DNA of 35,382 bases, taken from positions 1 to 35,382 of the forward strand of contig JAFGBL010000093.1 in assembly GCA_016933115.1 (NCBI GenBank), written 5' to 3'. The notes beneath the pieces are model-generated. The model was not told where the DNA came from, did no database searches, and saw only the letters and a list, made by a program, of their open reading frames with translations. Shown here piece after piece: positions 2,686-25,740 of the stretch (the stretch's first letter is position 1; each line of letters opens with the position of its first letter). Both the position numbers and the translations under genes were made by a program. The stretch comes from Bacteroidales bacterium (GTDB lineage Bacteria; Bacteroidota; Bacteroidia; Bacteroidales; JAADJA01).

Positions 2686-2809
2686 ATTGGTGTCAATTTT
2701 TTCTCTATGCTCTTTGCGGCTCCTCTGCGGTTGAAGTTTACAAAGCTTAATAAAATTATAATTATATTTTTAAGCAGCCTCTTAATATTCACAAATATTT
2801 ATGGCATTC

Positions 2810-2865
2810 TTAACTTAAAATTAAACCTCAATTAGAAAGCCATATCATGTATGGATTTATCTTCG
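2810..2865 (+). promoter_or_regulatory. Candidate Pho-type promoter: 11-bp TTAA array plus -7 element
   Basis: Three pentamers, TTAAC (2810), TTAAA (2821) and TTAGA (2832), sit exactly 11 bp apart, the pitch expected for OmpR/PhoB-family operators. After 21 bp comes TATCTTCG (2858-2865), one mismatch from the Bacteroidota -7 element TAnnTTTG. Transcription would start near 2869, which favours ATG 2881 as the start of the next gene. The same layout occurs upstream of the tandem-repeat protein and of the PhoB-like regulator. Function is inferred, not known. Confidence 0.5.
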
Positions 2866-2880
2866 CAGAAAATTATAGCT

Positions 2881-4200
2881 ATGGATTGCAGGAAAAATCT
2901 TTTCTATTTGGTGGTTGGTATTATAATTCTGACGGCATGTCAGCAACCGCAACCTTCCCGGGAAAATTCCACGGAAAATGCAACAGGGAGTGTCATTTTC
3001 ATTCATCCCGACGGTAGCGGGGCCAATATGTGGCAGGCGATGCGTCTTTTGAAAGTCGGGCCTGACGGCATTACAAACTGGGATAAAATGGATCACATGG
3101 GTTTGTACCGCAGCCATCAGAAGGATTGCATAACCACCAGCAGCCATGCCGGGGCGACCGTTCATGCTTTTGGCGTTAAAGTTCCCTATGAAACTTACGG
3201 CATTCATCCCGACAGACCCATCAAATCACTTTCAGGAAAGGATTACAGCATAATGATTGAGGCACAAAAGGCCGGTTTAAAGACGGCCCTCATCAACAGC
3301 GGGCATATCTGTGAACCGGGAACCGGCGTATTCGTCGCCAATTCCGACAACCGCAATAATACCGATACTATCTCAGAGCAGATCATCAGAAGCGGAGTGG
3401 ACATCCTTTTGTCAGGAGGAGAAATTTACCTGTTGCCGGAAGGAATGGTGGGTGTGCATGGCAAACCAGGGAAAAGGAAAGACGGGAAAAACCTGATTGT
3501 CATAGCTGTTGAGCTAGGATATAATGTGGTTTACACAAAGGAAGAAATGGAAAAACTTCCGTTGACCACCACCAAAGTCCTGGGCGTGTTTGCTGCCAAA
3601 CATACTTTTAACGACATGCCTGAAGAAGAATTGAACGGACAAAACCTTCCATTTTACAACCCGGAGGCTCCCACCATTGCTGAAATGACCTCTTTTGCAC
3701 TAAGACTGTTCGAAAACTCGGGTAAAAACTTTTTATTGGTTGTTGAAGAAGAAGGTTCGGATAACTTTGCCAATGAAAACAATGCATTGGGAGCACTCAA
3801 AGCCCTTTCCCGCGCCGATGATGCCATTGGTGTGGCGATGCAATTCACGGATAAACATCCCAATACCCTGTTGATTACTGCAGCTGATAGCGATGCAGGC
3901 GGACTTCAGGTCGGTACTTTTGGAAATGATCTTATCCCTGACCAGCCCCTGCCTGCAACAAATCAAAATGGGGCGCCAGCAGATGGACAAAATGGAACCG
4001 GGTCATTACCATTTAAAGCCAAAACCGACCAATTTGGAAATGAACTGCAATTTGCCATAACCTGGGCAACTGATCAGGATGTATACGGTGCAGTGATCGC
4101 AAAAGCACATGGATTGAATGCCGTGAAACTCCCCAATAATGTGGATAATACGGCTATTTATAAACTGATATACCTTTCTTTGTTTGGCGTGGAATTGTAA
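2881..4200 (+). CDS. Alkaline-phosphatase-superfamily lipoprotein with altered metal ligands
   Basis: A 439-residue protein with a short lipoprotein signal (lipobox LTAC, C20), so probably membrane-anchored outside the cytoplasm. It aligns along the classical alkaline phosphatase fold: D44 in PDGSG (E. coli D51), S88 (nucleophile S102), GVK at 98-100, E291 (E322) and D336 (D369). By my hand alignment several canonical ligands differ: D101 is S87, D327 is F296, H331 is N300, H370 is S337 and H412 is W395. I believe these motifs (EEEGSDNF, AADSDAGG) are typical of a divergent subfamily rather than random decay, so it may use different metals or substrates. ATG 2851 would add ten residues; 2881 is preferred because it gives a compact signal peptide and fits the promoter upstream. 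It faces the phytase operon convergently. Confidence 0.82.
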   Translation: MDCRKNLFYLVVGIIILTACQQPQPSRENSTENATGSVIFIHPDGSGANMWQAMRLLKVGPDGITNWDKMDHMGLYRSHQKDCITTSSHAGATVHAFGVKVPYETYGIHPDRPIKSLSGKDYSIMIEAQKAGLKTALINSGHICEPGTGVFVANSDNRNNTDTISEQIIRSGVDILLSGGEIYLLPEGMVGVHGKPGKRKDGKNLIVIAVELGYNVVYTKEEMEKLPLTTTKVLGVFAAKHTFNDMPEEELNGQNLPFYNPEAPTIAEMTSFALRLFENSGKNFLLVVEEEGSDNFANENNALGALKALSRADDAIGVAMQFTDKHPNTLLITAADSDAGGLQVGTFGNDLIPDQPLPATNQNGAPADGQNGTGSLPFKAKTDQFGNELQFAITWATDQDVYGAVIAKAHGLNAVKLPNNVDNTAIYKLIYLSLFGVEL

Positions 4201-4238
4201 TTCGGCCTGGTAAATTTGAATAAAAATCCACAATTGCA

Positions 4239-4275
4239 GAGGTAATCGAGGTCAATTGAGAATACCTCCATTTTT
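4239..4275 (+). terminator. Weak terminator-like hairpin after the alkaline phosphatase gene
   Basis: GAGGTA (4239-4244) pairs with TACCTC (4263-4268) across an 18-nt loop, followed by five T at 4271-4275. It lies in the 97-bp gap between convergent genes. The stem is short, so confidence is low. Confidence 0.35.
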
Positions 4276-4297
4276 AAGAGTTTATATATACAATTAT

Positions 4298-5437
4298 CTA
4301 TTCGCTGATATTATATTCAGCATCAATAATGAGTTTTGGTTCAAAAATGTTCGCAATTTTATCCCAGCCGACGATTTTAAAGTTTTGGTTGGTCAGATTT
4401 CCCGTTTCCATGTTATAACCATCCTGGGCGATGAAAATTCCATGGGGAAATTTTTCTCCCAATCCCAGGTTGATCACATCAATACCATCTGTTTCAGATA
4501 CACCGTCTATCGTTTCGGAATTTACGATCATAAAGCTTCCCAGGTATTTGTTTTCGTTAGCCCTCTCAAAAACGGCATAAGAATTATTCCCCTGGCTGGA
4601 TGCCAGCAAATATCCTGCTCCGTTATCGGCATAATAAATGGTAAGGCCCTCAATATCGTCCTTCAGGTAGATGTTCGATAAATCTGTGATCAATTTTCCT
4701 TCTTCTTGGTCCGGTTCTGCGCTGAACTTCCAGATACCCCTGTCTTCTTCAGCAATAAAAAGTATACCTGATTCATCATCAGCCACCATTCCTTCGCAGG
4801 TATTTCCCAATGTAAATTTCCTCACAATATTTCCAGAGATTTCCTCATTATCGGCTTTTAACTCCCACTGTTCGAATGAACCGTCTTTGCTTACAAGGTT
4901 TGCATAAAGTATACCTGTATTTTTCGAATGATAAAAACAAAACCCATAAATTTCATCGGTTTTCGAAATGATATTTTTGAGTGAAATTTCTTTAAGTTCA
5001 CCGGTTTCCCGATTTATTTTAAAAAGTGAGATGCTGTTGTACGACCGGTTGGTACAACCCACAATATCGATTGATTCTGTTCCGATAAGAAAACCGTACC
5101 TGATATCAACATTGTTCACCTTGCCAACGGGGTAAAAGAATTGTTCCTCACCATTGAGGTCATAGACCACCAGGCCCAATTTTTTATTTGTCCCGATAAT
5201 TTTACTGTTTGCAGGATCAGCTGCATTGTACCATATAGCAGGGTCATCGGCAGCATCATCCGGATTTTGAACCGGTGTGGTTTGTATATCTGCCGATACT
5301 TTATAAAAATCGAACTTCTTCAGGGTTTTTTCTATTGCAGCTTGTTCATTGGTGGTTTTGCAGTTGAACAATCCCAATGTTAAGAACAGGAAGAAATACA
5401 AAAGCGTTAGTCTGCCGTAATTTAGTTTATATTGCAT
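4298..5437 (-). CDS. Beta-propeller phytase (3-phytase) lipoprotein
   Basis: A 379-residue protein with a lipoprotein signal (hydrophobic stretch to about residue 24, C26), predicted on the periplasmic or outer surface. It carries the hallmark motifs of beta-propeller phytases: DDPAIW (64-69), IGTNKKLGLVVYDLNG (81-96), NNVDIRYGF (108-116), then EGM...FIAEED, a DIEGL segment, and the SETDGIDV and FPHGIFIAQDG motifs near the C-terminus. Family members are Ca2+-dependent six-bladed propellers that remove phosphate from inositol hexakisphosphate and related esters. The start lies 18 bp after the TonB receptor stop, so the two genes almost certainly share a transcript. That pairing matches a recurrent phytase-TonB receptor arrangement in Gram-negatives, with uptake of inositol phosphates as the likely purpose. 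Confidence 0.93.
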   Translation of the reverse strand: MQYKLNYGRLTLLYFFLFLTLGLFNCKTTNEQAAIEKTLKKFDFYKVSADIQTTPVQNPDDAADDPAIWYNAADPANSKIIGTNKKLGLVVYDLNGEEQFFYPVGKVNNVDIRYGFLIGTESIDIVGCTNRSYNSISLFKINRETGELKEISLKNIISKTDEIYGFCFYHSKNTGILYANLVSKDGSFEQWELKADNEEISGNIVRKFTLGNTCEGMVADDESGILFIAEEDRGIWKFSAEPDQEEGKLITDLSNIYLKDDIEGLTIYYADNGAGYLLASSQGNNSYAVFERANENKYLGSFMIVNSETIDGVSETDGIDVINLGLGEKFPHGIFIAQDGYNMETGNLTNQNFKIVGWDKIANIFEPKLIIDAEYNISE

Positions 5438-5455
5438 GGCTCGAAAATTAATTGT

Positions 5456-8347
5456 TTAAAAATTCAGTTTAACTCCCATCCGCCCGGTCCAGGAATAATA
5501 TTCCTGTTTCAGTATTTTATCCGGTGATGATAAATAATATTTTAACGGTTGATTGGTTAAATTTACCAGATTAATAAATATCCTGAGATGATCACTTATG
5601 GCATAATGCCCTGTAAAGTCAAGGTGCCAGGCTTTGTCGTAAAATTCATCTAGGTCGCTGTCAGCTCCCAGTTCATATAAAAAAGCATCGTGGAAATTGG
5701 CCGACAGTTTAGCATATATTTTTTTTGTATCATAAAAAACAGCCAGGTTGGTTGCATGTTTCGACTGGCCGGGCAGGGTGATATTCTCTGTGCCTTCCGA
5801 AATGATCTGATCCAGAAAAGGCTTTGAATAATCAATGACGGCGGTAGAAAAGTTACCGGGTATTCGTTGGTAAATAGAGGCATCAGAATATGTGAAGGTG
5901 TAATTCATATAAAATCCGAAGTTATTCCAAATTTCAGGTAGGAAAAACAGTTTTGTCTGGGCCTGGATCTCTGCACCGTAAACATACGATTTAATACCAT
6001 TGACCGGAATGGTAAAAAGCAGGTTGTTGCTGAATGTAGAATCTTCGTGAAACCATTTTTTATAGTAAAAAACGAAATCATCGACTTTTTTATAGAACAA
6101 ACCACCGGAAATGATGCCGTCTCCCTTGATATATCTTTCAGCCAGGAAGTCAATATTCAATGCTTTTGGGAATATCAGATCGGGATTTCCCAACTTTACT
6201 TCATTACGGTCCTTTTCACGGTACTGGATCATATCTTCAAAATTCGGCCGCGAAAAAGTATAGGTGATGGCCACCCTGAGGTTAAAATTATCGTTAAAAC
6301 TATATTTTAGCTGAAACTGAGGCAGTAGGAATTCGTAGGTTTTGCTGTCGGGGATCGTGTCGACATCGATGAATTTTAGAGTTACCGGATGATAAATCGC
6401 ATATCGTCCTTCGTTGTACACATCAGTCTTTTCAAACCTCAATCCTCCAAGGATCATTAACTTGTTAAAATCGTGCCTTAACATGATATAGGCAGCATAA
6501 ATATCTTCACGCGCAAAGTAGTCCTCCAGGGTTGTAGCTTCCCTGACGTTATCCCGACTCATGACAAAAAACCACGGGTAAAATTCATATTGCTGGTTCA
6601 GTTTCTCAGCCGAAGGGATATATTCAAGTGTGTATCCCTGCCCCATGAAATCGTTTTCTGTAAAATTATAACTTACCGAAGGCAGTGTCATTGGAGGTGC
6701 TACTCCAGGATAAAAAGGATTGACCGTATCGTATTTCCCTAAGACCATGGAATTAACGTCCCGTTCTTTTTCTTTGTGTCGGTATTTACCGCCAAATTTA
6801 ATATATCCCGAATTGTTCGGGTTCGAGAGGTATGGTATCTGAAAATTCAATTTCGCGGTTACATTATTGTCTTTCACATTCCGCTTTTCTATCAGGAGTT
6901 CGTCGAATTCGTAATTTTTATAATCATATGCATTTTGTGAATTTTCAGGAAAAGGGAAATAGGGTTTTGGCCATTGGGGGTCGGATTGGTCAAATTTGAT
7001 TGCAATGGCCTGACCGGGACTGCTAAACTCACCCTCAATCCGGTTCGGAGTGTCTTCGGTTGCCAGTGCATATGCTACTTCATAGTCGATGATATACTTT
7101 TTCCAATGATGTTGGCCTCCTGCATTCACCGTCGTAAGTCCCTGGATTTTCGTACGGTCTTTTACATCATGAACAATGCCACCATATAAGTAATAATCAA
7201 GGGTAAGCGGGTCGTCAGTCTCATAAATTTTTCTTTTCCTTATTTCATCATCAGAAAAACTATTGAACATACCCCGGATATAAACAAAGGAATTTTTACT
7301 GAATTCATAATCCAGTGTAGCACTTATAGCTGTCCTTTTGCGCGTGATGTCGTAATACCTTAGCTGGAATTCCTTGTAATGAACCAAATAGTTTTCTTCC
7401 TCCTGCCCCTGGTTGGTCCAAACCGGCCCTTTTGCATAGAGGATTTCCAGGTTATCCGATCCGTAATTATTCACATAGTAGCTGCCATTGAAAAATATTC
7501 CAAACTTGTTTATCCTCAGGCCCGATGAAAACTGGAGATTGTAATTTCCGGTTTTCCTGAGGTTATTGTAACCACCGGAAACAGTAGCATTGATCTCAGG
7601 GTTTTCACTTTTTGCCCTTTTCGTCGTAATATTGACAGTCCCTCCGATCCCGTCTGCATCCATGTCAGGTGTGAGTACCTTTGTGATTTCAATTTCATCG
7701 ATCTGGTCAGCCGAAATGATGTCCATTCCTACGTATCTTACACCACCCTCGGGTGACGGTATCTGTTCCCCGTTGATATTGAAGTTGGTCAACTCAGGAG
7801 GTGTACCTCTTAACTGAATAAACCGGCCTTCACCCTGATCCCGTTGAAGCGTAATACCCGGTATTCGCTGAATAGCTTCGGCGGCGTTCATATCGGGGAA
7901 TTTTTCAATTTGTTCTGAGGATACTATGTTTTTAATGTTGGCCGCATTCTTTTGATCGATAAATGCTTTCACCTGTCCTTCCGATTCAGCCTCTACTTTA
8001 AATTGCTCCAGTTCTGTTGCCGTTGGCTTCAATTGGATGGTGAAGTAGGATTTTTTATCGGTGATAAAATCATGCTCCAGGTAAATGGGGTCAAATCCCA
8101 CATAACTGATCACCAACGTGATTTTATCCTGTTTGATATTGGATAGTCTGAATTCACCTTTCGATTCGGTTGTAGTTCCCACCTGGGTCCCTTGAATGAT
8201 CACGGATGCACCGGGTAACGGATCACCGGTGGATTGATCGGTTACTTTTCCTTGTATGGAAAATGATTGCTGAGAAATTGCGATAAAAGAAAGGCAAAAA
8301 TTGAGCAATAAGTTTATGGTTATTGTCCGGAGTTTTGATTTTAACAT
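5456..8347 (-). CDS. TonB-dependent outer-membrane receptor, phytase-linked
   Basis: A 963-residue outer-membrane receptor. Signal peptide about 1-26; carboxypeptidase-regulatory-like beta-sandwich about 30-115 (GKVTDQSTGDPLPGASV start); plug domain about 135-245 with AIQRIPGITLQRDQGEG and the IDEIEITK...DADGIGGTVNI motif; then the 22-strand barrel, ending in GVKLNF with the C-terminal aromatic residue used in outer-membrane assembly. The plug resembles the TIGR01782-type receptors common in Xanthomonas, Caulobacter and Bacteroidota. No SusD-like partner follows; the next gene is the phytase. The probable ligand is a phytate-derived inositol phosphate or another phosphoester, inferred from context only. 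I could not find a clear promoter in the short upstream gap. Confidence 0.92.
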   Translation of the reverse strand: MLKSKLRTITINLLLNFCLSFIAISQQSFSIQGKVTDQSTGDPLPGASVIIQGTQVGTTTESKGEFRLSNIKQDKITLVISYVGFDPIYLEHDFITDKKSYFTIQLKPTATELEQFKVEAESEGQVKAFIDQKNAANIKNIVSSEQIEKFPDMNAAEAIQRIPGITLQRDQGEGRFIQLRGTPPELTNFNINGEQIPSPEGGVRYVGMDIISADQIDEIEITKVLTPDMDADGIGGTVNITTKRAKSENPEINATVSGGYNNLRKTGNYNLQFSSGLRINKFGIFFNGSYYVNNYGSDNLEILYAKGPVWTNQGQEEENYLVHYKEFQLRYYDITRKRTAISATLDYEFSKNSFVYIRGMFNSFSDDEIRKRKIYETDDPLTLDYYLYGGIVHDVKDRTKIQGLTTVNAGGQHHWKKYIIDYEVAYALATEDTPNRIEGEFSSPGQAIAIKFDQSDPQWPKPYFPFPENSQNAYDYKNYEFDELLIEKRNVKDNNVTAKLNFQIPYLSNPNNSGYIKFGGKYRHKEKERDVNSMVLGKYDTVNPFYPGVAPPMTLPSVSYNFTENDFMGQGYTLEYIPSAEKLNQQYEFYPWFFVMSRDNVREATTLEDYFAREDIYAAYIMLRHDFNKLMILGGLRFEKTDVYNEGRYAIYHPVTLKFIDVDTIPDSKTYEFLLPQFQLKYSFNDNFNLRVAITYTFSRPNFEDMIQYREKDRNEVKLGNPDLIFPKALNIDFLAERYIKGDGIISGGLFYKKVDDFVFYYKKWFHEDSTFSNNLLFTIPVNGIKSYVYGAEIQAQTKLFFLPEIWNNFGFYMNYTFTYSDASIYQRIPGNFSTAVIDYSKPFLDQIISEGTENITLPGQSKHATNLAVFYDTKKIYAKLSANFHDAFLYELGADSDLDEFYDKAWHLDFTGHYAISDHLRIFINLVNLTNQPLKYYLSSPDKILKQEYYSWTGRMGVKLNF

Positions 8348-8417
8348 CTCGTTAACCTTGAATTAATTAGCAACCAGCTTTAATTGACTTGATACTTATT
8401 TAAATAAATTCAAAATC

Positions 8418-8472
8418 GAGGCTGTCAAACCGGAAGGGAGAAAAAGTTTACCTGTTTCCTTCTGACAGCCTC
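8418..8472 (-). terminator. Terminator-like hairpin after the tandem-repeat protein gene
   Basis: GAGGCTGTCA (8418-8427) is perfectly complementary to 8463-8472, and GAAGG/CCTTC (8433-8437/8458-8462) extends the fold inward. Read on the minus strand, it follows the stop at 8500 and is followed by T-rich sequence (8417 to 8400). It would separate this gene from the receptor starting at 8347. Confidence 0.65.
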
Positions 8473-8499
8473 AATCGATTATTTTCCGGGATGGAAAAC

Positions 8500-10155
8500 C
8501 TATCTCACGATAATTTTCTGAGAATAGGAATTTTCATCCTGAATGGCCCGGATAAAATAGATTCCTTTGGGAAGATCCCTCAAATCAAGATTTACTAATA
8601 TTGTATTTTCAGTGGTCTTTTCCAAAACGACATTACCTTTTGCGTCTGTAAGGGTTAAACTGCAGATGGCATCCGACTCAAGCCGGATATTGAGCAGGCC
8701 ATTTGTTACCGGATTTGGAAAAATATCCAGTGTTTTATGTTCTGCAAAAATATCAGTTACTGATTGTGAACCCGAGAAATATACCAACAATCTGGGAACT
8801 CGTTCGGGGTGATTTTGCCCGTCACCACCGTCTTCGGGATCGGCAATGTTTTCAAATGATTCGAATTCCCTTGCATTTTCATAATCACTTGTGCCCTGGT
8901 TTTCACCAAGCATATGTATCCCCAGCGAGTTTCCTGAAACCCAATTTTCCCTGTCAATGATCTCCTGGATTATATCTGAGATATCCGGTGTGCGGTGATA
9001 GGTCCACAACCCCCATTCTTCAGCTACTTCCCACATAACGGAAGCATCGGTTTTGGGCCTGTCGGTGATCAATTGGTCCATAGTGAAAGTCGGAGCATTA
9101 TCGTATGTTTCACCGACAATTGTTATTTTAGCCACATCTTCTGCATTTTTTGATTCGTGGGAACAAAGAAGGATATAGGCTGAATCAATTTGAGCGCCAT
9201 GAGGAATTTCTATACTTTGGAATCTTAATCCTGTAGATAATATATTAAGATCCTCCGGGTCTCCTTCCCATCCGGCGTCCAAATCATCATCATGCAATGT
9301 ATCCATTTCGTCATTCTCCTGTTCTGCATCATCAGATGAAAGCTGATAGGTAACCAATTGGCCGTTTTCCAAAGTATCGGTTACTATTTCTCCATTGGCA
9401 ATAATGGGAACCTCCAGGAAAGTTGATTCGACCGAATATTCGATAACAAGTTTGGGAACCCTTTCAGGATGGTTTTGTCCGTCGCCGCCGTCTTCGGGAT
9501 CTGAAATATTTTCAAATGATTCGAATTCCCGGGCATTTTCATAATCGCTGGTTCCCTGGTTTTCTCCCTTGAGGATCAGGACAAGAGAGTTGCCATAATT
9601 CCATCCATTGAGATCTATAATCTCCTGAATGATGGAAGATATATCAACCGATTGATGTGGTGTCCAAAGGCCCCATTCTTCGGCTACTTCCCACAATACG
9701 GAAGCATCGGTTTGTGGCCGTCCGGTGATGAGAGCATCCATGGTAAAAGTTACCGGATTCGGATCTTTTTGGCCAACCATTGTAATTTTTGCTACATCTT
9801 CTGCATTTTTTACCTCATGTGAAGTAACCTCAAGATATGCCGATTCAATGGTTGCTCCTTTCGGTACCGGTACTCCCTGGAATCTTAATCCCGTACTGAG
9901 GATGTTCAGATCCTCCGGATCACCTTCCCATCCGGCATCCAGGTCATCATCATGCAAACTATCCATTTCATCATTTTCCTGTTCGGCATCGTCAGAAGAA
10001 AGGGAATATGTTACCAGTTGACCGTTTTCAAGGGTATCCGTTACCACCTCACCATTCTGGATGATGGAGACATCAACTGTAGTTGTTTGTCCGTAATTGG
10101 ATTTTACAAAAAGTAATAACGTAATAATTCCAAAAAATAGTAGAAATTTTTTCAT
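8500..10155 (-). CDS. T9SS-exported protein with two tandem 220-residue acidic units
   Basis: A 551-residue secreted protein: signal peptide about 1-23, unit A about residues 31-240, unit B about 251-460, and a C-terminal type A T9SS sorting domain over roughly the last 80 residues (FPNPVTNGLLNI ... LPKGIYFIRA ... KIIV). The units start at NGE(V/I)VTDTLENGQLVTY and carry an acidic block (SSDDAEQENDEMD, HDDDLDAGWEGDPEDL) that could bind Ca2+. The rest (TGLRFQ, A-x-I-x-SAY, ASVxWEVAEEW, DISxIIQEII, PxLxIEY) matches a beta-sandwich module I have seen in surface and extracellular proteins of Bacteroidota and other bacteria. No enzyme active site is evident, so adhesion or ligand binding is possible. 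It forms its own transcription unit, with a Pho-like promoter upstream and a terminator downstream, inside the phosphate locus. Confidence 0.85.
   Translation of the reverse strand: MKKFLLFFGIITLLLFVKSNYGQTTTVDVSIIQNGEVVTDTLENGQLVTYSLSSDDAEQENDEMDSLHDDDLDAGWEGDPEDLNILSTGLRFQGVPVPKGATIESAYLEVTSHEVKNAEDVAKITMVGQKDPNPVTFTMDALITGRPQTDASVLWEVAEEWGLWTPHQSVDISSIIQEIIDLNGWNYGNSLVLILKGENQGTSDYENAREFESFENISDPEDGGDGQNHPERVPKLVIEYSVESTFLEVPIIANGEIVTDTLENGQLVTYQLSSDDAEQENDEMDTLHDDDLDAGWEGDPEDLNILSTGLRFQSIEIPHGAQIDSAYILLCSHESKNAEDVAKITIVGETYDNAPTFTMDQLITDRPKTDASVMWEVAEEWGLWTYHRTPDISDIIQEIIDRENWVSGNSLGIHMLGENQGTSDYENAREFESFENIADPEDGGDGQNHPERVPRLLVYFSGSQSVTDIFAEHKTLDIFPNPVTNGLLNIRLESDAICSLTLTDAKGNVVLEKTTENTILVNLDLRDLPKGIYFIRAIQDENSYSQKIIVR
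8776..10065 (-). repeat. Tandem intragenic duplication, 660-bp period
   Basis: The two coding units (about 9436-10065 and 8776-9405) match at DNA level with an offset of 660 bp. For example the block at 8831-8904 recurs at 9491-9564 with few changes. This indicates duplication within the gene, recent enough to remain visible in nucleotides. Confidence 0.9.
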
Positions 10156-10190
10156 TGTGTTATCTTTTTAGTTATTTATAATTTTTCAGC

Positions 10191-10246
10191 CAAATGTATT
10201 TTCGAAACCTGATGTAATTACTAACTGAACCTTAATTTAAGGTTAA
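10191..10246 (-). promoter_or_regulatory. Candidate Pho-type promoter of the tandem-repeat protein
   Basis: Read on the minus strand: TTAAC (10246-10242), TTAAG (10235-10231) and TTAGT (10224-10220), each 11 bp apart, then 21 bp, then TACATTTG (10198-10191), a perfect TAnnTTTG -7 element. The predicted transcript leader is about 30 nt. No separate -33 TTTG is visible, which fits an activator-dependent promoter. This is the best of the three candidate sites. Confidence 0.55.
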
Positions 10247-10248
10247 AA

Positions 10249-10280
10249 AAAAGCCCCGATTTATTAAAATCGAGGCTTTT
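10249..10280 (-). terminator. Intrinsic terminator after the MORN-repeat gene
   Basis: A 14-bp stem with one C-A mismatch (10249-10262 with 10267-10280) and an ATTA loop. It is flanked by A-runs on one side, read as T-runs on the minus strand, and ends 20 bp past the stop at 10301. A strong rho-independent terminator. Confidence 0.85.
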
Positions 10281-10300
10281 GTGTGTATTATAAAGTGGGT

Positions 10301-10768
10301 TTAATATTTTCGCTCGTTTAAAAGGGTTCCGTCCTTGTCAAACATTTTCCATGTTCCGGATTTGTTGCCTTCTGAGTAGTGCATCTCATACAGCAAATTA
10401 CCATCATCATCCCAAATAAACCAATCGCCATTTTTGAGGTCGTCTTTATAGCGTGCTTCTCCTACTTTGGTTCCCTTCTGATTCCAGTTTATCCACAAAC
10501 CGTCCTTTTTTCCTTCCTTGTATGATCTTAATTCGTGCTTTTGTCCGTTTTCGAAATAGGTTATTACTTCACCGTCTTCGATCCCGTTTTTAATGTTCAA
10601 TTCAATCCTAATGTTGCCATTTTCAAAGTACTCCTTGTGGGTGCCGGTATAAAGCATATTCCGTTTGTAGAAATAACCGTCTTTCTGAATCACCTCCTGT
10701 GTATAACCTGTGGCAACAAAAATTAAAATTGAAGCAAATGTCAAAAGAATTCCAATATATGTTTTCAT
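10301..10768 (-). CDS. Exported MORN-like repeat protein (YwqK-type)
   Basis: 155 residues from the ATG at 10768, which opens a clean signal peptide (MKTYIGILLTFASILIFVAT, cleavage near residue 24). An in-frame ATG at 10816 would put 16 polar residues before it and is less likely. The mature part is a chain of about five repeats of the form YFENGxxxxExxxKxGxxDGxWxxW (residues 47-155), the MORN-variant pattern found in many Bacteroidota exported proteins annotated as YwqK-like. Such repeats form beta-hairpin ladders; no specific activity is known to me. It lies 62 bp downstream of the receptor stop on the same strand and ends at a strong terminator, so it is probably the last gene of the lipoprotein-receptor operon. 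Confidence 0.82.
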   Translation of the reverse strand: MKTYIGILLTFASILIFVATGYTQEVIQKDGYFYKRNMLYTGTHKEYFENGNIRIELNIKNGIEDGEVITYFENGQKHELRSYKEGKKDGLWINWNQKGTKVGEARYKDDLKNGDWFIWDDDGNLLYEMHYSEGNKSGTWKMFDKDGTLLNERKY

Positions 10769-10830
10769 TTCATCTGTTTTTGATACAATACCTGGTTTGT
10801 AAAAAAAAGTTTTCAAATTTATAAAAATAA

Positions 10831-13734
10831 TCAGAACTGATAGCTGACTCCCAGGCCCACGGAAATGCCGGGGTTTAAACTACTGTAAACCTGGTCTTCT
10901 GCCTCATACGACCTGTAGTGGCTCACCACTTTTTCATTTAAAAGATTTGACACTTTAAAATCGATCATTGTTCTCTTATCTTTTCCGAATCTCTTATTCA
11001 AACTAAAATTAAGGCTGTTGAAAGGATCGGCATAGATGTCGGGAAATAAGCCGGCTCCAACGATGCTGAGAGTGGTTCCTTTTACGTTGTAAAACACGCC
11101 GGCGTCCAGGCCATGATCCGGATCGCTGTATGTAATTCCGGCATTGACCACAAAGGGCGATTGCCCGGCCATAACCCTGTTATTTTCTATGGATTCTCCT
11201 GCCTTTTCGTAAGTCTTCCGTGAATTATACTCAGTATCAGTCATATCAATACTTGATTTTACGAGGGTGAGATTTCCATTCACTGACAACTTATTCAATG
11301 CAATGGCAATGAAACTTAAATCCTTCCTGAATTCCAGCTCTACACCATACAATTGGCCGTCACCCACATTGCGCGGTTGGTATTCGGTGCTGGTTTGCTG
11401 TTCGGGTATGCGGACCAGTTCAATCGGATTATCAAATGTTTTATAGAAGCCGCTAACAGAGTACATCTGGCCGGCGGGCAGGTACCATTCCCAACGGATA
11501 TCAAAATTATTAATGCGGGTCTCTGTCAGGTTGCCATCCCATCCGGAGTAAGTAAATAAACTTCCGTTAAAGATACGATTTGAGATCGGATCAATTATTT
11601 GGGCAAATGATAGCTCTTTGAAAGAAGGCCTTGCAATAGTGCGTGAATATGAAATCCGGAGGTTTTGTTCGTCGCTCAGGGCATAAATAAGGTTCACCGA
11701 AGGAAACAGGTCAGTTGATTCCAACACCTTGTCATTATCGAGGTTTTTACCATTGATGATATCGCCGCTGGCATAAGTCTGGTCACGGCCGGTATGTTTT
11801 TGCACATAATACTCTATACGAACGCCCACGATGGTTTTAAGTTTAGGCAGAGGATTGAACTCCTCTGATATATAAGCCGCAAAATTGTTTATATTCGATG
11901 CATAAGTATTGGGGTTCGGATTTCGGTTACCCGATTGATAATAAATACTGTTGGGCTTGTTGGGATAAATGTTTTCGGCATCAAGCACATGAGCCGGATC
12001 AGGGTTTGTCCATGACTGGGTCCCGAAAAATTGCATATCAAAAAACAAGATTTCATAATCTCTTTGTTTGTAAATATGGCTCAAACCGAATTTAAGTCGG
12101 GCATCCCGTTTCATCAACTCATGTTTTTTTGAGAGATCTATTTTCGAGGTATTGTTCAATTCTTCAAGTGATCTCCAGATTCTTGAAGGATTTCCGCCGG
12201 CTCCTCCACTAAACAGAGTGTCGAGCGGTTGATAAGTAAAGGCTGTTTTGCGGATGTCGGGATCATTTGAAGTTGAATAGGTGGGAGAAATCCGCCAATC
12301 AATTTCCCAACCAGTAGTTGGCCAGAGATGTAAACCATTCAACAATCCGTTAGTGAGCGAACGCTGATTGTACTCAATGTTATCGGAACTGGCACGGTAA
12401 CCCGATTGTCCAACGGCTTCCCCGTCATTGACAATATAAAATTTACCGGCCCTGCTTTCACCGTTCTGAAGGTGCATGAGGGTTAACCTGATTTTTGAGT
12501 GATCGGTTTTATAGGCCAATCCCCCCAGCGCTCCAAGCAGGACGTTTTGTTCGCCCAACTGCCCTGTTTGGATGGTGGCATATCGCATTTCGTAAAGGTT
12601 GGGATCGATATACCGCTGGTATTCTCCGAAGATCACTTCATCATAAAATTTTGTATCGGTCTTGTAGGACAGTGAGAACACATATCCCAGTTTTCGTTTC
12701 TTAGCTGGATCACCTTTCTTTTTTCCCAAATCTATTTGATTACCCATGGAAATCCCCATGCTATAATCCATAAAGCTTGTCTTCTGTTTGGCAGCTAATT
12801 GGGAATCAAAACTGGTTACAAAGTCAAATACTTCCTGGTCGGAAGCGCCGCTGATGGGCGTGGGGATATTGTCTTTTCCTGCACGGGCAGGTAAAGCCCG
12901 CGTACCATCATCAAAACCCAGCATATCCGTAGAACCACCTTCGTATGTAAGCCAATCGGAATTGAAGTGCATGGATGGATTGTAGGTAAGCCCTAAAGAT
13001 ACCGATATGGACTTTTCTTCAGGGAAATCCTTGGTTTCAATATTAAGCATCCCACCGGTAAAATCAGCGGGCATATCAGCTGTATAATTTTTACTAACGA
13101 ATATATTGTCGATCAGGTTGGTGGGGAAAATATCCATTTGCAAGCTGTTACGGTCGGGGTCAAGGCCCGGTATGTCAACCTGGTTCAGCATTGTTTTCGA
13201 ATACCGATCACCCAATCCTCTCACATAAACATACTTACCGTCTTCCACCGAGACACCGGTAACGCGCTTGGCAGCCTCAACTGCGGTTGCATCGCCGGTA
13301 AGTTTGATTTTCGAGGAAGATATCCCATCCAGAATAACAGCCGATTTCTTTTTAATGGTAAGCAACGCAGATTCTGTTCGCCGGATCACCTCGGCGCTTA
13401 CCACCACTTCTGATAGCTCAAGACTTACTTCTTTAAGTACCAAATTTTCCAGCATGGTCACTTCACCCGCTTTCACCTGCACATCGTTAATCAGGATGGT
13501 TTGAAACGAAATGTAAGATATCTGGGCCTGGTAGCTACCCGGATCGGCATCGATGCTAAATTTTCCATCCAGATCGGTGGTTGTACCAATGGTGGTACCA
13601 GTCAAAAATACGGTTACACCAACCAGGGATTCACCGGTAGCTTCTTCATAAACGGTGCCCCTTATCTTTCCTTTTTGAGCCATTGTCTGAAGGCCCATTC
13701 CAAGTATCAGCAATAACCAGATTATTTTCCTCAT
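10831..13734 (-). CDS. TonB-dependent outer-membrane receptor paired with a beta-helix lipoprotein
   Basis: 967 residues: signal peptide 1-19 (cleaved near MAQ), carboxypeptidase-regulatory-like domain about 22-110 (GTVYEEATGESLVGVTV ... TDLDGKFSI), plug about 125-245 (AAKRVTGVSVEDGKYVYVRGLGDRY, DNIFVSKNYTADMPADFTGG), then the barrel to a terminal SYQF. The VRGLGDRY plug type is widespread in Bacteroidota and usually pairs not with SusD but with a separate surface lipoprotein; here the gene before it encodes such a lipoprotein. The operon is divergent from PhoB/PhoR-like genes, suggesting a substrate linked to phosphate limitation, such as a phosphoester or phosphate-bearing polymer. The ligand is inferred from position only. 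Confidence 0.9.
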   Translation of the reverse strand: MRKIIWLLLILGMGLQTMAQKGKIRGTVYEEATGESLVGVTVFLTGTTIGTTTDLDGKFSIDADPGSYQAQISYISFQTILINDVQVKAGEVTMLENLVLKEVSLELSEVVVSAEVIRRTESALLTIKKKSAVILDGISSSKIKLTGDATAVEAAKRVTGVSVEDGKYVYVRGLGDRYSKTMLNQVDIPGLDPDRNSLQMDIFPTNLIDNIFVSKNYTADMPADFTGGMLNIETKDFPEEKSISVSLGLTYNPSMHFNSDWLTYEGGSTDMLGFDDGTRALPARAGKDNIPTPISGASDQEVFDFVTSFDSQLAAKQKTSFMDYSMGISMGNQIDLGKKKGDPAKKRKLGYVFSLSYKTDTKFYDEVIFGEYQRYIDPNLYEMRYATIQTGQLGEQNVLLGALGGLAYKTDHSKIRLTLMHLQNGESRAGKFYIVNDGEAVGQSGYRASSDNIEYNQRSLTNGLLNGLHLWPTTGWEIDWRISPTYSTSNDPDIRKTAFTYQPLDTLFSGGAGGNPSRIWRSLEELNNTSKIDLSKKHELMKRDARLKFGLSHIYKQRDYEILFFDMQFFGTQSWTNPDPAHVLDAENIYPNKPNSIYYQSGNRNPNPNTYASNINNFAAYISEEFNPLPKLKTIVGVRIEYYVQKHTGRDQTYASGDIINGKNLDNDKVLESTDLFPSVNLIYALSDEQNLRISYSRTIARPSFKELSFAQIIDPISNRIFNGSLFTYSGWDGNLTETRINNFDIRWEWYLPAGQMYSVSGFYKTFDNPIELVRIPEQQTSTEYQPRNVGDGQLYGVELEFRKDLSFIAIALNKLSVNGNLTLVKSSIDMTDTEYNSRKTYEKAGESIENNRVMAGQSPFVVNAGITYSDPDHGLDAGVFYNVKGTTLSIVGAGLFPDIYADPFNSLNFSLNKRFGKDKRTMIDFKVSNLLNEKVVSHYRSYEAEDQVYSSLNPGISVGLGVSYQF

Positions 13735-13777
13735 AACGATTTGAAGGTGATTTATTTAATTTGATAAAAAATACAGA

Positions 13778-13811
13778 AAACAGACCCGCAATCTGAATTG
13801 AGGATCTGTTT
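13778..13811 (-). terminator. Intercistronic hairpin between lipoprotein and receptor genes
   Basis: AAACAGA (13778-13784) pairs with TCTGTTT (13805-13811), and CC with GG just inside, across a 14-nt loop. It lies in the 108-bp gap after the lipoprotein stop. It may attenuate or stabilise the transcript; no clear T-run follows on the minus strand, so full termination is doubtful. Confidence 0.35.
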
Positions 13812-13842
13812 CCCACAGAAATAATATTGTTTTAAACCTTGA

Positions 13843-15039
13843 TTATAGTCCTGCCAATTTTCCAGCATTTGAAGCCCATGTCCAACCAAAAACACCTGCA
13901 TTGGCTTTGGGTGATCCGCCAGCAGTAACACCAGCAGGCACTTCGCCGTTTACATAGTTGGCTAAATCACCGGCCGGCACATTGAGTTCAATGCCCTCGA
14001 AGCTCACTCCGGCGGCAGTTACGCGGTTGATTTGCTGGCCTTCTTCGATACCTGTAAAATAAATGTTTTTTAGGGCAACAATGGAGTTGTCATCAACATT
14101 GATCAAGTCGCCAGAACTTCTTTCATACTCGGTATCGCTGCAAACCACGGTTCCATTTTGGATGGTATGACCTCTTTCGAAAGAACCTTCCGGGCCATCA
14201 AGTTCATAATTGTGTCCACCCGGAGCCACTACGATAAAGTTATCAAGGGTTCCGCCCCACGACTGGTCGGTGTCGATAGCATCATCGTTTACATTCCAAA
14301 CCAGCAGATTTTTCACATTTACTGTTCCACCGAACCATTCCACACCGTCATCCTGGTTGGCAACTACCTCAATGTTTTCAACTATTGTGTTGGAACCCAC
14401 ACCACCCAGGGTAAGGCCATTGATCTCGTTTCCTGATCCGATATTGGTACCTCCATGACGGATAGAAATATATTTGAGCACACCCGAATTATCCTCATCA
14501 TTATTTCCACCATACAATCCGTTGGGATCGGAGGTTGGAATACCTTCAATCTGAACTTCGTTTACATCGCCGTTTTCATTGGATGCCGAGATGCTTGCAT
14601 TTCCCAACACAATCAGTCCACCCCAGAGTCCGTCAATATCAGGATCAAGGTTGGGGCTTTCTATCTGCCCGGGTACAATCTCATCGGCCACCGATGTGAA
14701 AATAATAGGTTGATCGGCTGTACCTTCAGCCATTAATTTACCCCCCCGTGCAATTAATAAGGCTGTTGCGTTGGCGCCTGTACCAGCTTGACCTTTAATA
14801 ATTACTCCTGGCTGTATGTTGAGGGTTGCTCCTGATAATACGGTAATACGGCCCGCAAGAACATAAACATTACCGGTTGTCCAGGTGGTATTTTGGGAAA
14901 TGTTTGTCGTAACAACAATACCACTGGTGTTGTTATTATTATTGTTGTCGTCGTCGTCATCATCCTTGCTGCAAGCCGAAAAAACACCAATAACTGTGGC
15001 AAACATTGCCAGGTAAAGTAAGAGATTTAATTTTTTCAT
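13843..15039 (-). CDS. Surface lipoprotein with right-handed beta-helix-like repeats
   Basis: 398 residues with a lipoprotein signal (FSAC, C23), then a run of six Asp and six Asn (26-37), a spacer often seen in Bacteroidota surface lipoproteins. The body starts with NVYVLAGRITVLSGATL and continues with GVIIKGQAG, LLIARGGKLMAEGT and PIIFTS, a pattern I recognise from Bacteroidota proteins with a pectate-lyase-like beta-helix. Further repeats occur at ISIRHGG, NTIVENIEVVANQDDGVEWFGGTVNVKNLLVWNV style segments (about 190-260). I see no obvious catalytic triad, so binding is more likely than cleavage. It is the first gene of an operon with the TonB receptor 108 bp downstream and is divergent from the PhoB-like regulator, so it is a plausible substrate-capture partner of that receptor. 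Confidence 0.82.
   Translation of the reverse strand: MKKLNLLLYLAMFATVIGVFSACSKDDDDDDNNNNNNTSGIVVTTNISQNTTWTTGNVYVLAGRITVLSGATLNIQPGVIIKGQAGTGANATALLIARGGKLMAEGTADQPIIFTSVADEIVPGQIESPNLDPDIDGLWGGLIVLGNASISASNENGDVNEVQIEGIPTSDPNGLYGGNNDEDNSGVLKYISIRHGGTNIGSGNEINGLTLGGVGSNTIVENIEVVANQDDGVEWFGGTVNVKNLLVWNVNDDAIDTDQSWGGTLDNFIVVAPGGHNYELDGPEGSFERGHTIQNGTVVCSDTEYERSSGDLINVDDNSIVALKNIYFTGIEEGQQINRVTAAGVSFEGIELNVPAGDLANYVNGEVPAGVTAGGSPKANAGVFGWTWASNAGKLAGL
14929..14964 (-). repeat. In-frame trinucleotide tract (Asp6-Asn6)
   Basis: Twelve consecutive GAY and AAY codons encode the Asp/Asn spacer after the lipid Cys. Because the unit is a codon, slippage would change spacer length without breaking the frame. 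Confidence 0.8.
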
Positions 15040-15077
15040 CGTAATGTAAATTTAATTAGTGACTTTTAATTTTGATG

Positions 15078-15134
15078 CAAAACAAGAAGATAAAAATCAG
15101 ATAAAATTTAAGTTTTTCTTATTTTTGTATTAAG
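15078..15134 (-). promoter_or_regulatory. Weaker Pho-like array facing the lipoprotein operon
   Basis: TTAA cores at 15130 and 15108 are 22 bp apart, with a degenerate TTAT core (15119) midway. TTGTTTTG (15085-15078, minus strand) lies 22 bp beyond and is one mismatch from TAnnTTTG. The match is poorer than at the other three sites and the DNA is very AT-rich. Offered as a possible promoter for the operon starting at 15039. Confidence 0.3.
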
Positions 15135-15149
15135 TTTTGTATCTTGAGT

Positions 15150-15204
15150 TTAATAAAAATTTAACATTAATTTAAGAATCGAAACCAAATTCAGAATAAA
15201 TTTG
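15150..15204 (+). promoter_or_regulatory. Candidate Pho-type promoter of the phoB/phoR-like operon
   Basis: TTAAT (15150), TTAAC (15161) and TTAAG (15172) are each 11 bp apart, then 20 bp, then TAAATTTG (15197-15204), a perfect TAnnTTTG. The ATG at 15214 follows so closely that the leader would be only about 6 nt. The layout suggests autoregulation of the two-component system. The TTAA cores are palindromic, so the array could also act toward the divergent operon. Confidence 0.5.
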
Positions 15205-15213
15205 TGTCCACTT

Positions 15214-15897
15214 ATGGAATCATCCAATACTAAAATTCTCATCGTCGATGATGAGAAGGACATCATCGAATTTCTCAGGTATAATTTCGAAAAGGAAGGA
15301 TTTCAGGTCTATTCTGCAAGAAACGGTAAGGACGGGAAAGAAGTTGCCATAAAGGAAAAACCCGATTTGATCGTTCTGGATATCATGATGCCCGGAATGG
15401 ACGGTGTTGAATTGTGTAAAGAACTTAGGGAAAAACCAGAATTTCAGGATACACTTATCATTTTCCTTACCGCCCGCGGTGAAGATTACTCCCAAATTGC
15501 TGGTTTTGAAGTGGGTGCAGATGATTACATTACCAAGCCCATTCGCCCACGTGTCTTAATTGCCAGAGTCAATGCCTTGCTCAAGCGCAAATCCAAAATC
15601 AGCTTGAGTGAAAATACCATTGATCTGAAATCCCTGATTATTGATAAAGATAGGAGAGACGTTAAAGTTGAAGGCAAATCCATTCACATCCCAAAAATTG
15701 AATTTGATTTGTTGGTTCTTCTCGTTTCCAATCCCGGTAAAATTTTTACACGCGAAGAAATATATTCCAAGATATGGGGAAATGAGGTTTATGTAAGTGA
15801 TCGTACACTGGACGTCCACATCAGAAAACTTCGCGAAAAAATTGGAAAACAATACATCAAAACAATAAAAGGTGTAGGATACGGTTTTACCGAATAA
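15214..15897 (+). CDS. phoB: OmpR/PhoB-family response regulator
   Basis: 227 residues from the ATG at 15214. A TTG at 15202 is also in frame, but it overlaps the -7 element and adds nothing to the fold. The receiver domain has the acidic pair D12-D13, phospho-acceptor D56 (LIVLDIMMPGMDG), the TAR switch motif and K in ITKP. The winged-helix DNA-binding domain starts about residue 130 (FDLLVLLVSNPGKIFTREEI) and ends in the recognition segment VSDRTLDVHIRKLREKIG and IKTIKGVGYGF. The kinase gene follows 17 bp later. Assignment as PhoB rests on the neighbouring phosphatase, phytase and receptor genes and the phased TTAA arrays; another OmpR-type regulator cannot be excluded from sequence alone. 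Confidence 0.88.
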   Translation: MESSNTKILIVDDEKDIIEFLRYNFEKEGFQVYSARNGKDGKEVAIKEKPDLIVLDIMMPGMDGVELCKELREKPEFQDTLIIFLTARGEDYSQIAGFEVGADDYITKPIRPRVLIARVNALLKRKSKISLSENTIDLKSLIIDKDRRDVKVEGKSIHIPKIEFDLLVLLVSNPGKIFTREEIYSKIWGNEVYVSDRTLDVHIRKLREKIGKQYIKTIKGVGYGFTE

Positions 15898-15914: not shown

Positions 15915-16961
15915 ATGAAAAACGCAACTCCCCGACAAATTGCCTGGATTTCTACCTTGAGTATCTCCGGTTTAGTACTTATTATTCTGATTATACTTAA
16001 GATTCTTTCATTCCAAATGCTGAATTGGTTGGTTGTTTTCATTACCCCTTTGATAATTTTGATTGCAGGTTATTTTATCTTCAATTATATTATGGAAAAT
16101 TTTATCTACCGGAAGATAAAGTTGATTTATAAAACCATTTATGACACTAAACTGCCTGCAGAAGAAAAAAAGGATAAATCCAGAAAAAAAAATGACCTGA
16201 TCGATTATGCCGAGTCGGAGGTGATTGAATGGAAGAAGAATATATCCAGGGAAATGACCAAGCAAAAGCAAATGGAAAATTACCGAAAGGAATTTCTTGG
16301 AAATGTATTTCATGAATTAAAAACACCGATTTTCAATATTCAGGGTTATCTGGAAACATTGGTTGACGGAGGGATCAAGGATGATGAGGTAAATATCAAG
16401 TTTTTAAAAAAGGCCCGGAAAAATGTTAACCGGATGGCAGAGATTGTCGATGACCTGCAGATGATCTCCAACCTGGAAGATGGGAGTTTTGCCTTATCCA
16501 TGAAAAAAATCGATATCACCAAAATGGTGTCAGAAATTCTGGAACAACATGAATTAAGGGCAGGGAAAAAGGACATTAAACTGGAGATCAAGGAGGGATG
16601 CGATAAATCCTTTATGGTGCTGGTCGACCGGGAACTGATCCTTCAGGTATTGAACAACCTGGTCACCAATTCCATTAAATACGGCAAAGGGGGAGGACGT
16701 ACACAGGTTGGAATTTATGATATGAATGAAAATATCCTTGTTGAAATCTCCGACAACGGGATTGGAATCGAACAAAAACATTTGCCCCGTATTTTTGAGC
16801 GGTTTTACAGGGTAGATAATGCCCGTTCGCGTGAAATGGGTGGATCGGGCCTGGGTCTTTCCATTGTAAAACACATCATCGAAGCCCACCATCAAACCAT
16901 TAATGTGCGTAGTGCTCCGGGAGTAGGAACCACTTTTGGATTTACCTTAAAAAAGGCTTAG
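15915..16961 (+). CDS. phoR: PhoR-like sensor histidine kinase lacking a large sensor domain
   Basis: 348 residues with two adjacent membrane segments (about 11-31 and 37-58) separated by only a few residues, so there is almost no extracytoplasmic domain. A charged coiled linker (about 65-125) leads to the dimerisation/phospho-acceptor domain with H133 in FHELKTPIFNIQGY. The ATPase domain has the N box (LNNLVTNSIKYG), DNGIGIEQ (G1), the F box (IFERFYRVD) and GGSGLGLSIVKHIIEAH (G2). I see no PAS domain between membrane and kinase, unlike E. coli PhoR. Such compact kinases generally sense through membrane or cytosolic partners; for PhoR that would be the PstSCAB-PhoU system, not in this window. 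The gene is co-transcribed with the regulator and convergent with batE only 18 bp away, with no visible terminator between them. Confidence 0.88.
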   Translation: MKNATPRQIAWISTLSISGLVLIILIILKILSFQMLNWLVVFITPLIILIAGYFIFNYIMENFIYRKIKLIYKTIYDTKLPAEEKKDKSRKKNDLIDYAESEVIEWKKNISREMTKQKQMENYRKEFLGNVFHELKTPIFNIQGYLETLVDGGIKDDEVNIKFLKKARKNVNRMAEIVDDLQMISNLEDGSFALSMKKIDITKMVSEILEQHELRAGKKDIKLEIKEGCDKSFMVLVDRELILQVLNNLVTNSIKYGKGGGRTQVGIYDMNENILVEISDNGIGIEQKHLPRIFERFYRVDNARSREMGGSGLGLSIVKHIIEAHHQTINVRSAPGVGTTFGFTLKKA

Positions 16962-25567: not shown

Positions 25568-25604
25568 TGGAATTGATTACATGTAAAGGTTTGAGGTGGT
25601 GTTA

Positions 25605-25740
25605 AATATTGTTAAACCGGTTCGATTGCCCGATTGTTCGATTGCTTGATGGTTAAACCGTTAAATTGGTTAAACTTGTTGAATCTGTTGATCCCGATAG
25701 CTATCGTGAGGTTGAATCGGTGAATTGGTAAGTGGGATAT
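25605..25740. repeat. Degenerate repeat cluster upstream of moxR
   Basis: Three CGATTG copies at 8-bp pitch (25623, 25631, 25639), two copies of GTTAAACCG (25611 and 25652), further GTTRAA-type words, and a 12-bp perfect palindrome CGATAGCTATCG (25695-25706). There is no coding sense on either strand. It looks like the dispersed repeats common between genes in Bacteroidota. Confidence 0.7.

Follow-up and report, generated by a model that had tools for sequence, protein, structure and literature searches.

Among the closest described relatives of the element reported here is the box of the cyanobacterial regulator SphR. In Synechocystis PCC6803 this box is a tandem row of three or more 8-bp CTTAACCT units separated by 3-bp linkers, and SphR boxes precede phosphatase genes, phosphate-transport genes and, in some genomes, sphR genes (PMC1906773). 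We examined a candidate Pho box of Bacteroidota in the phosphate locus of a Bacteroidales bacterium (GenBank assembly GCA_016933115.1, contig JAFGBL010000093.1, positions 1 to 35,382). The whole 35,382-base stretch is called the window below, and the 4.47-Mb genome to which it belongs is called the own genome. Set against the SphR box as that source describes it, the repeats found here share the 8+3 layout, the 11-bp pitch and a TTAAC core, the unit being NTTAACAT. Unlike the SphR box, they occur in another phylum, at another core promoter (TAnnTTTG at -7) and before other targets (a PiT permease and an FII-type lipoprotein); the seventh letter is mostly A instead of C, and the first letter is not fixed. 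The Bacteroidota box is therefore a variant close in word and 8+3 layout to the cyanobacterial one.

The E. coli PhoB box (CTGTCAT-type, as described in PMC4415409 and PMC1906773) is likewise made of 11-bp direct repeats just upstream of the promoter core, and the E. coli protein has a near-identical recognition helix. However, the box described here has TTAAC in place of TGTCA, mostly three units, and a last unit that lies mostly 26 (also 15 or 37) bp from the core, and the regulator carries K at the R201 and R219 positions. The initial annotation of this DNA had remarked that the repeat word differs from TGTCA, and the unit matrix NTTAACAT, in which the E. coli word is not recovered, bears this out.

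Two systems within Bacteroidota come nearest. PhoP of Riemerella anatipestifer, also of the OmpR family, has a motif with the letters TTTAACA that was called ArcA-like (PMC9603813); the accessible text of that report gives neither a repeat geometry nor a -7 phase. PhoB of Bacteroides fragilis binds the pstC promoter in an electrophoretic mobility shift assay and is needed for expression at low phosphate (PMC3547664). The binding was seen on a 512-bp fragment, with no box sequence in the accessible text. A full-text literature search, which covered few subscription papers, returned no defined Pho box or operator for Bacteroidota. The earlier claim that no box of this form has been described in the phylum holds to that extent, but the word itself has precedents in SphR and in R. 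anatipestifer PhoP.

Work on phosphate-starvation responses in Bacteroidota has so far described their proteins. Knowing the word, pitch and phase of the box would allow the phosphate regulon to be predicted in sequenced Bacteroidota, which is relevant to phosphorus cycling in soil, plants and the gut. It also offers a clear way to test how PhoB can recognise a word other than the E. coli one through an almost identical recognition helix. Our broadest reading is tentative and less likely than not to hold in full: a TTAAC Pho box of at least three units in Bacteroidota would share its word and pitch with cyanobacteria, be read by a lysine-bearing PhoB, and stand 15, 26 or 37 bp from TAnnTTTG. 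If this is true, the TTAAC form, as a code for phosphate control, would predate the TGTCA form of E. coli or be more widespread.

Three candidate boxes in the phosphate locus

To score the sites, we trained a tied matrix for rows of three 8-bp units, 11 bp apart, on 19 genus permease promoters. It yielded the unit NTTAACAT (N-T-T-A-A-C-A-T), with A at 0.61 and C at 0.18 in the seventh position. The highest score among the three sites of the initial annotation (15.1 bits) belongs to the one before the phoB-like gene, an OmpR-family response regulator gene at 15214..15897 on the plus strand (PF00072, PF00486). Here the triple TTTAATAA AAA TTTAACAT TAA TTTAAGAA occupies 15149..15178 (+), with its TTAA-type words at 15150, 15161 and 15172, and the -7 element TAAATTTG follows at 15197..15204 (+), 25 bp beyond the last word. 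The second site (12.6 bits) precedes the gene of a tandem-repeat protein exported by the type IX secretion system (T9SS; 8500..10155, minus strand, Por_Secre_tail). Its triple, TTTAACCT TAA ATTAAGGT TCA GTTAGTAA at 10218..10247 (-), has words at 10246, 10235 and 10224, and its -7 element TACATTTG (10191..10198, -) starts at 10198, 26 bp beyond the last word. The third, before the alkaline phosphatase gene (2881..4200, +; Pfam PF00245, E 3.5e-36), is weak: the triple CTTAACTT AAA ATTAAACC TCA ATTAGAAA at 2809..2838 (+), with words at 2810, 2821 and 2832, scores 5.6 bits, or 8.5 bits if framed one unit upstream (2798-2827). The element TATCTTCG at 2858..2865 (+), 26 bp beyond its last TTAA-type word, differs from TAnnTTTG by one letter. 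Every word, coordinate and strand given for these sites in the initial annotation was right, and so was their common geometry: counted between their initial T letters, the last word and the -7 element are 26 bp (phosphatase), 26 bp (T9SS protein) and 25 bp (phoB) apart.

Against shuffled sequence, the p-values in the window were 0.005 for phoB, 0.010 for the T9SS protein, 0.035 for the phosphatase in its best frame, and 0.070 and 0.736 for the TonB-receptor regions TBDT1 and TBDT2. There was no box in the 110 bp upstream of TBDT2 (-3.5 bits). The phosphatase site is the least secure of the three.

We also searched for the full geometry, written as TTAR, 7N, TTAR, 7N, TTAR and then TAnnTTYG 25-26 bp from the last T. 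It occurs exactly three times in the window, at the three sites above, and never in 500 dinucleotide shuffles of 11 intergenic segments of the window (2,444 bases). Twenty other stretches of the own genome (313,319 bases), a non-random sample in which several were chosen for a bare triple on their contig, held a single match. This fourth site (C163:10535, minus strand) stands 26 bp before TATTTTTG and directly upstream of a small CarboxypepD_reg gene, which adjoins a PHO4-type phosphate permease (PiT) gene. The search pattern had been derived from the first three sites, which leaves the fourth match as the sole independent find.

It is possible that true boxes stand only at the core promoters (phoB, the lipoprotein, the permease and its neighbours) and that the phosphatase site, and perhaps the T9SS site, are chance runs of TTAA; we think this the lesser prospect, although one to be taken seriously. 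The low scores of the phosphatase site fit it, as does the single partial relative of the T9SS protein among 59 other genomes, which has 7.8 bits upstream. The phosphatase has one close orthologue, in G008, where a 15.0-bit triple lies 144 bp before the matched part. That triple tells against chance, but no T[A/T]nnTTTG is found in range of it. Also against chance, both window sites keep a full geometry that was otherwise seen once in 313 kb.

Pitch and phase to the -7 element

The 11-bp pitch is seen in three promoter sets. Among 15 phoB upstream regions, TTAA-TTAA distances peaked at 11 bp (31) and 22 bp (16), with 14 as the next highest count. The 19 permease promoters of the genus gave 34, 27 and 13 at 11, 22 and 33 bp, no other distance exceeding 17 (at 6 bp), and 24 permease promoters of other families in the order gave 24 at 11 bp, followed by 10. 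Side peaks at 5, 6, 16 and 17 bp stem from interleaved copies such as TTAACATTAACTTAA. The sites are thus direct repeats one helix turn (11 bp) apart, as in a Pho box.

The repeats also stand in fixed phase to the promoter core, TAnnTTTG being the reported Bacteroides -7 consensus (PMC4747536). Of 80 promoters assembled for this comparison, 57 had a gene-strand triple of at least 11 bits and 56 were usable. In these, T[A/T]nnTTTG was found 19 times at 25-27 bp from the T of the last unit, against a shuffle mean of 0.4 and a maximum of 4 in 200 shuffles; the promoters come from related genomes, so these and the following phase figures overstate independence. The spacing read from three sites in the window therefore recurs in other promoters. 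TAnnTTTG alone accounted for 10 cases at this distance, T at the second position having been admitted after the lipoprotein promoters were inspected. When positions 15, 26, 37 and 48 bp (each +-1) were taken together, they held 28 of 40 T[A/T]nnTTTG elements, with 1.6 expected. Seven of the remaining 12 lay at 12 bp, all in permease promoters. In the 12 lipoprotein promoters that reached 11 bits, the element was at 26 bp in nine and at 20 bp in one, and two had none.

The window's own lipoprotein promoter is less clear. A weak second triple (TTAA/ATAA/TTAA, 7.9 bits) at 15108..15133 on the minus strand faces the FII-type lipoprotein gene (13843..15039, -), which is divergent from phoB and has the same neighbourhood in Flavobacterium. 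The -7-like element TTGTTTTG (15078..15085, -) lies 26 bp beyond the last word of this triple, and the corresponding cluster is clearer in other genomes of the genus.

AT-rich spacers often contain TTAA and the choice of sites had been made by eye, so base composition might account for all of them. The bare triple TTAA-TTAA-TTAR would agree with that: it occurs at 12 distinct places in the own genome, of which the window has 4 and the permease locus 2, and genome-wide it is no commoner than its reversed control (15+14 versus 12+20 hits). However, results depart from chance in the pitch, gene and shuffle controls as well as in the -7 phase, and we regard composition as practically out of the question as an explanation of every site. 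For the core set, chance in AT-rich spacers was rejected by the pitch, gene and shuffle controls.

Conservation and exceptions

With the permease-trained matrix, 13 of 13 phoB-lipoprotein regions of the genus scored above their shuffles at p <= 0.01. Permease promoters of other families in the order did so at p <= 0.035 in 16 of 24 cases, and the phoB regions of two further families in the order gave p = 0.015 (G040) and p = 0.109 (G020). In Flavobacterium, five of six phoB-receptor regions reached p <= 0.02, these being from a single genus and hardly independent. For the phylum, an even draw of 80 genomes yielded 10 permease loci in addition to ours. Nine could be scored, the start of the tenth not being recognisable, and six of these nine were at p <= 0.04.

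A survey at a threshold of 11 bits took in intergenic regions from the window, from the surroundings of phoB in relatives (20 regions) and from the 20 own-genome stretches, permease regions being excluded. Boxes were found in 17 of 24 phoB and lipoprotein regions versus 17 of 134 others (Fisher 1.2e-8). When the pitch was set to 8, 9, 10, 12, 13 or 14 bp, the matches among those 24 regions fell to 0, 1, 1, 1, 0 and 2. Seven of the 17 other positives came from two gene families that neighbour the permease, the CarbopepD_reg and the 354-aa outer-membrane genes, which have eight regions in the survey. Counting both families as phosphate genes, a choice made after the boxes had been seen, gives 24 of 32 versus 10 of 126. 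The ten remaining positives include the window's own T9SS and TBDT1 regions.

The repeats, their pitch and conservation, the genes they precede and their phase to the -7 element are direct observations. The boxes stand before phosphate-acquisition and regulator genes in the case of phoB, the lipoprotein and the permease, and weakly before the phosphatase of the window. We consider it very likely, judging from the DNA, that the sites are Pho boxes and candidate binding sites of the Bacteroidota PhoB. The initial annotation had offered this as a candidate reading, and matrix, pitch, conservation and -7 phase support it, with the phosphatase site weak. The genome comparison that it had called for found the box before phoB and the FII-type lipoprotein gene in the 13 genus genomes where the two are divergent, and at permease genes in 16 of 24 other families of the order, above both shuffles and control promoters and at an 11-bp pitch only. 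It had named equal frequency in shuffled or unrelated regions as grounds for giving the idea up; for the core set the shuffle, gene and pitch controls showed the opposite.

Several observations weigh against this reading. The phosphatase site, as said, reaches 5.6 bits. Four training promoters out of 19 had no clear box (7.7-11.3 bits). Among permease promoters in the order, 8 of 24 missed p <= 0.035 and only 10 of 24 reached 11 bits; at phylum level 3 of 9 missed p <= 0.04 and only 1 of 9 reached 11 bits. The phoB genes of G016, G011 and G009, which lack the divergent lipoprotein gene, have no clear box: the best match is 8-9 of 12 letters, and the whole intergenic region gives 10.6, 11.4 and 3.8 bits. 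In the Flavobacterium phoB region, the 11-bp pitch is kept by two units only. In Flavobacterium SLB02, a strict triple (three TTAAC words, at most one mismatch) had 5 hits versus 9 in the reversed control. The genomes compared are related and not independent, so the p-values overstate the case. In addition, high-scoring boxes occur before ribonucleotide reductase and other genes; the ribonucleotide reductase triple scores 19.2 bits at L166:5887-5916 (contig C162), 197 bp before the gene, and no phosphate gene was recognised nearby.

The triple TTTAACATCTCGTTAACCTTGAATTAATTA at 8340..8369 on the plus strand of the window is a further difficulty. It scores 18.0 bits on the plus strand and 12.2 on the minus with the permease-trained matrix, and it overlaps the start codon of a minus-strand TonB-receptor gene, the receptor of the phytase pair, which makes activation of that gene in the usual way impossible. 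This triple and the weak one facing the lipoprotein gene were not among the sites of the initial annotation. It may be a repressing site or may be there by chance.

The repeats might instead bind one or more OmpR-family regulators other than PhoB, with TTAAC at an 11-bp pitch widely shared in Bacteroidota. The own genome has many OmpR-type paralogues, one of them 52% identical to PhoB. Both perfect TTAAC triples of SLB02 at 11-bp pitch, L260 (786513) and L261 (2465558), have an outer-membrane receptor-like gene on one side and a histidine-kinase gene on the other. None of these is known as a phosphate gene, and neither kinase is the phoR beside phoB. The word may therefore not be unique to PhoB, and other OmpR-type systems of Bacteroidota may use it as well. 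The ArcA-like motif of R. anatipestifer PhoP, obtained by DNA affinity purification sequencing, has TTTAACA as its most conserved part and was reported around 579 of 583 peaks (PMC9603813). A PhoP/PhoR mutant of that species had pstS up 8-fold (PMC5399024), which is unlike the effect of losing a phosphate activator, so that PhoP may not be a phosphate regulator. Against another regulator as the main reader, boxes go with phoB and lipoprotein regions (17 of 24 versus 17 of 134 others), stand before phoB itself in 13 genomes, and precede a permease gene that lies within 4 kb of the best phoB match in 11 other families of the order. We hold such a regulator to be improbable as the explanation, and prefer PhoB. 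The word is, however, probably common to two or more regulators, or less strict in certain lineages.

Regulator and neighbouring genes

The recognition helix of E. coli PhoB is almost fully retained in the PhoB proteins encoded by the window and by SLB02 (VYVxDRTxDVHIRxLR in the window). In the E. coli protein, Arg201 and Arg219 make base contacts in the crystal complex as reported (PMC3973317). The R201 position is K in 35 of 36 best-match regulators and the R219 position in 35 of 35, although some of the more distant of these matches may be paralogues. Lysine at both places is consistent with the changed word, and could be its cause.

We infer that PhoB is the binder, that the promoters are induced by low phosphate, and that contact is made with sigma. 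The mechanism we propose is as follows. Each unit is the 8-bp NTTAACAT plus 3 bp, with at least three units head to tail, one per 11 bp. Under phosphate shortage, the PhoR-like kinase would phosphorylate the PhoB-like regulator (15214-15897), which would then most likely occupy the units as a head-to-tail row. The last unit mostly lies at a distance of 26 bp from the -7 element, roughly at the place of a -33 element in a Bacteroidota promoter, or else a helix turn to either side (15 or 37 bp). Since that unit is in phase with the -7 element, bound PhoB could hold the primary sigma factor there, and so recruit RNA polymerase at promoters that have a good -7 element and no -33 element. The regulon would comprise phoBR under its own control, the divergent FII-type lipoprotein, and the PiT-type permease with its neighbours, and in the own genome perhaps the T9SS protein and the phosphatase.

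The phoR-like histidine kinase gene follows phoB at 15915..16961 (+; PF00512, PF02518), and a second TonB receptor of the window stands with the FII-type lipoprotein gene. Of 16 genus genomes compared (our own and 15 others), 13 have phoB divergent from that lipoprotein gene; a seventeenth, G002, has no close phoB. The order lipoprotein, TonB receptor, phoB, phoR is kept in six of six Flavobacterium genomes and equals Fjoh_0546-0543. In Flavobacterium johnsoniae, Fjoh_0546, 0545 and 0544 (lipoprotein, receptor and PhoB) are reported to rise on phosphate depletion, whereas PhoR does not (PMC8115612); we used that list of induced genes through gene order in close relatives only. A long PiT gene lies within 4 kb of the best phoB match in each of the 11 other families mentioned above. 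PhoU (TIGR02135) was found in none of the 17 genus genomes, several of them incomplete, and PhoX (PF05787) had no match above cut-off in 8 Flavobacterium genomes, so neither was of use as a test gene for the box.

Phytase and TonB-dependent receptor genes occupy 4298..8347 on the minus strand (PF02333; PF00593, PF07715). The own genome has two phytase matches, one in the window (4298-5437) and one at L068, and none was found in the 16 other genus genomes, several incomplete, so the gene looks recently gained or often lost. No box (at most 5.4 bits) precedes the second copy within 200 bases of its reading frame, but its transcription may start further upstream.

At the permease locus, the PiT gene (L160:10561-12831 on contig C163, minus strand) encodes 755 aa. 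Its C-terminal 255 residues have a weak match to the PhoU domain (PF01895, E 0.0023, below cut-off), and the protein may be a candidate PiT-PhoU fusion that signals to PhoR in place of Pst-PhoU. A 354-aa protein is encoded divergently at L160:13010-14026 (Porin_O_P, E 0.022, below cut-off), and its place beside PiT suggests a phosphate porin. The next gene is that of an FII-like lipoprotein of 455 aa, the likeness being judged by eye. Elsewhere in the own genome, at L172:1440-11898 (contig C182), the genes after the PhoB-like regulator with 52% identity encode a TonB receptor and a large protein, part of which is FII-like. The boxes there are all weak (9.9-10.1 bits), and the locus is possibly a paralogous cluster.

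The bat operon adjoins phoBR in the window. Before its moxR gene, at 25600-25680 on the minus strand, are several TTTAACC and TTTAACA words at a spacing of about 8-10 bp, followed by CATAATTTTG. In R. anatipestifer, the moxR promoter is a reported target of PhoP (PMC9603813).

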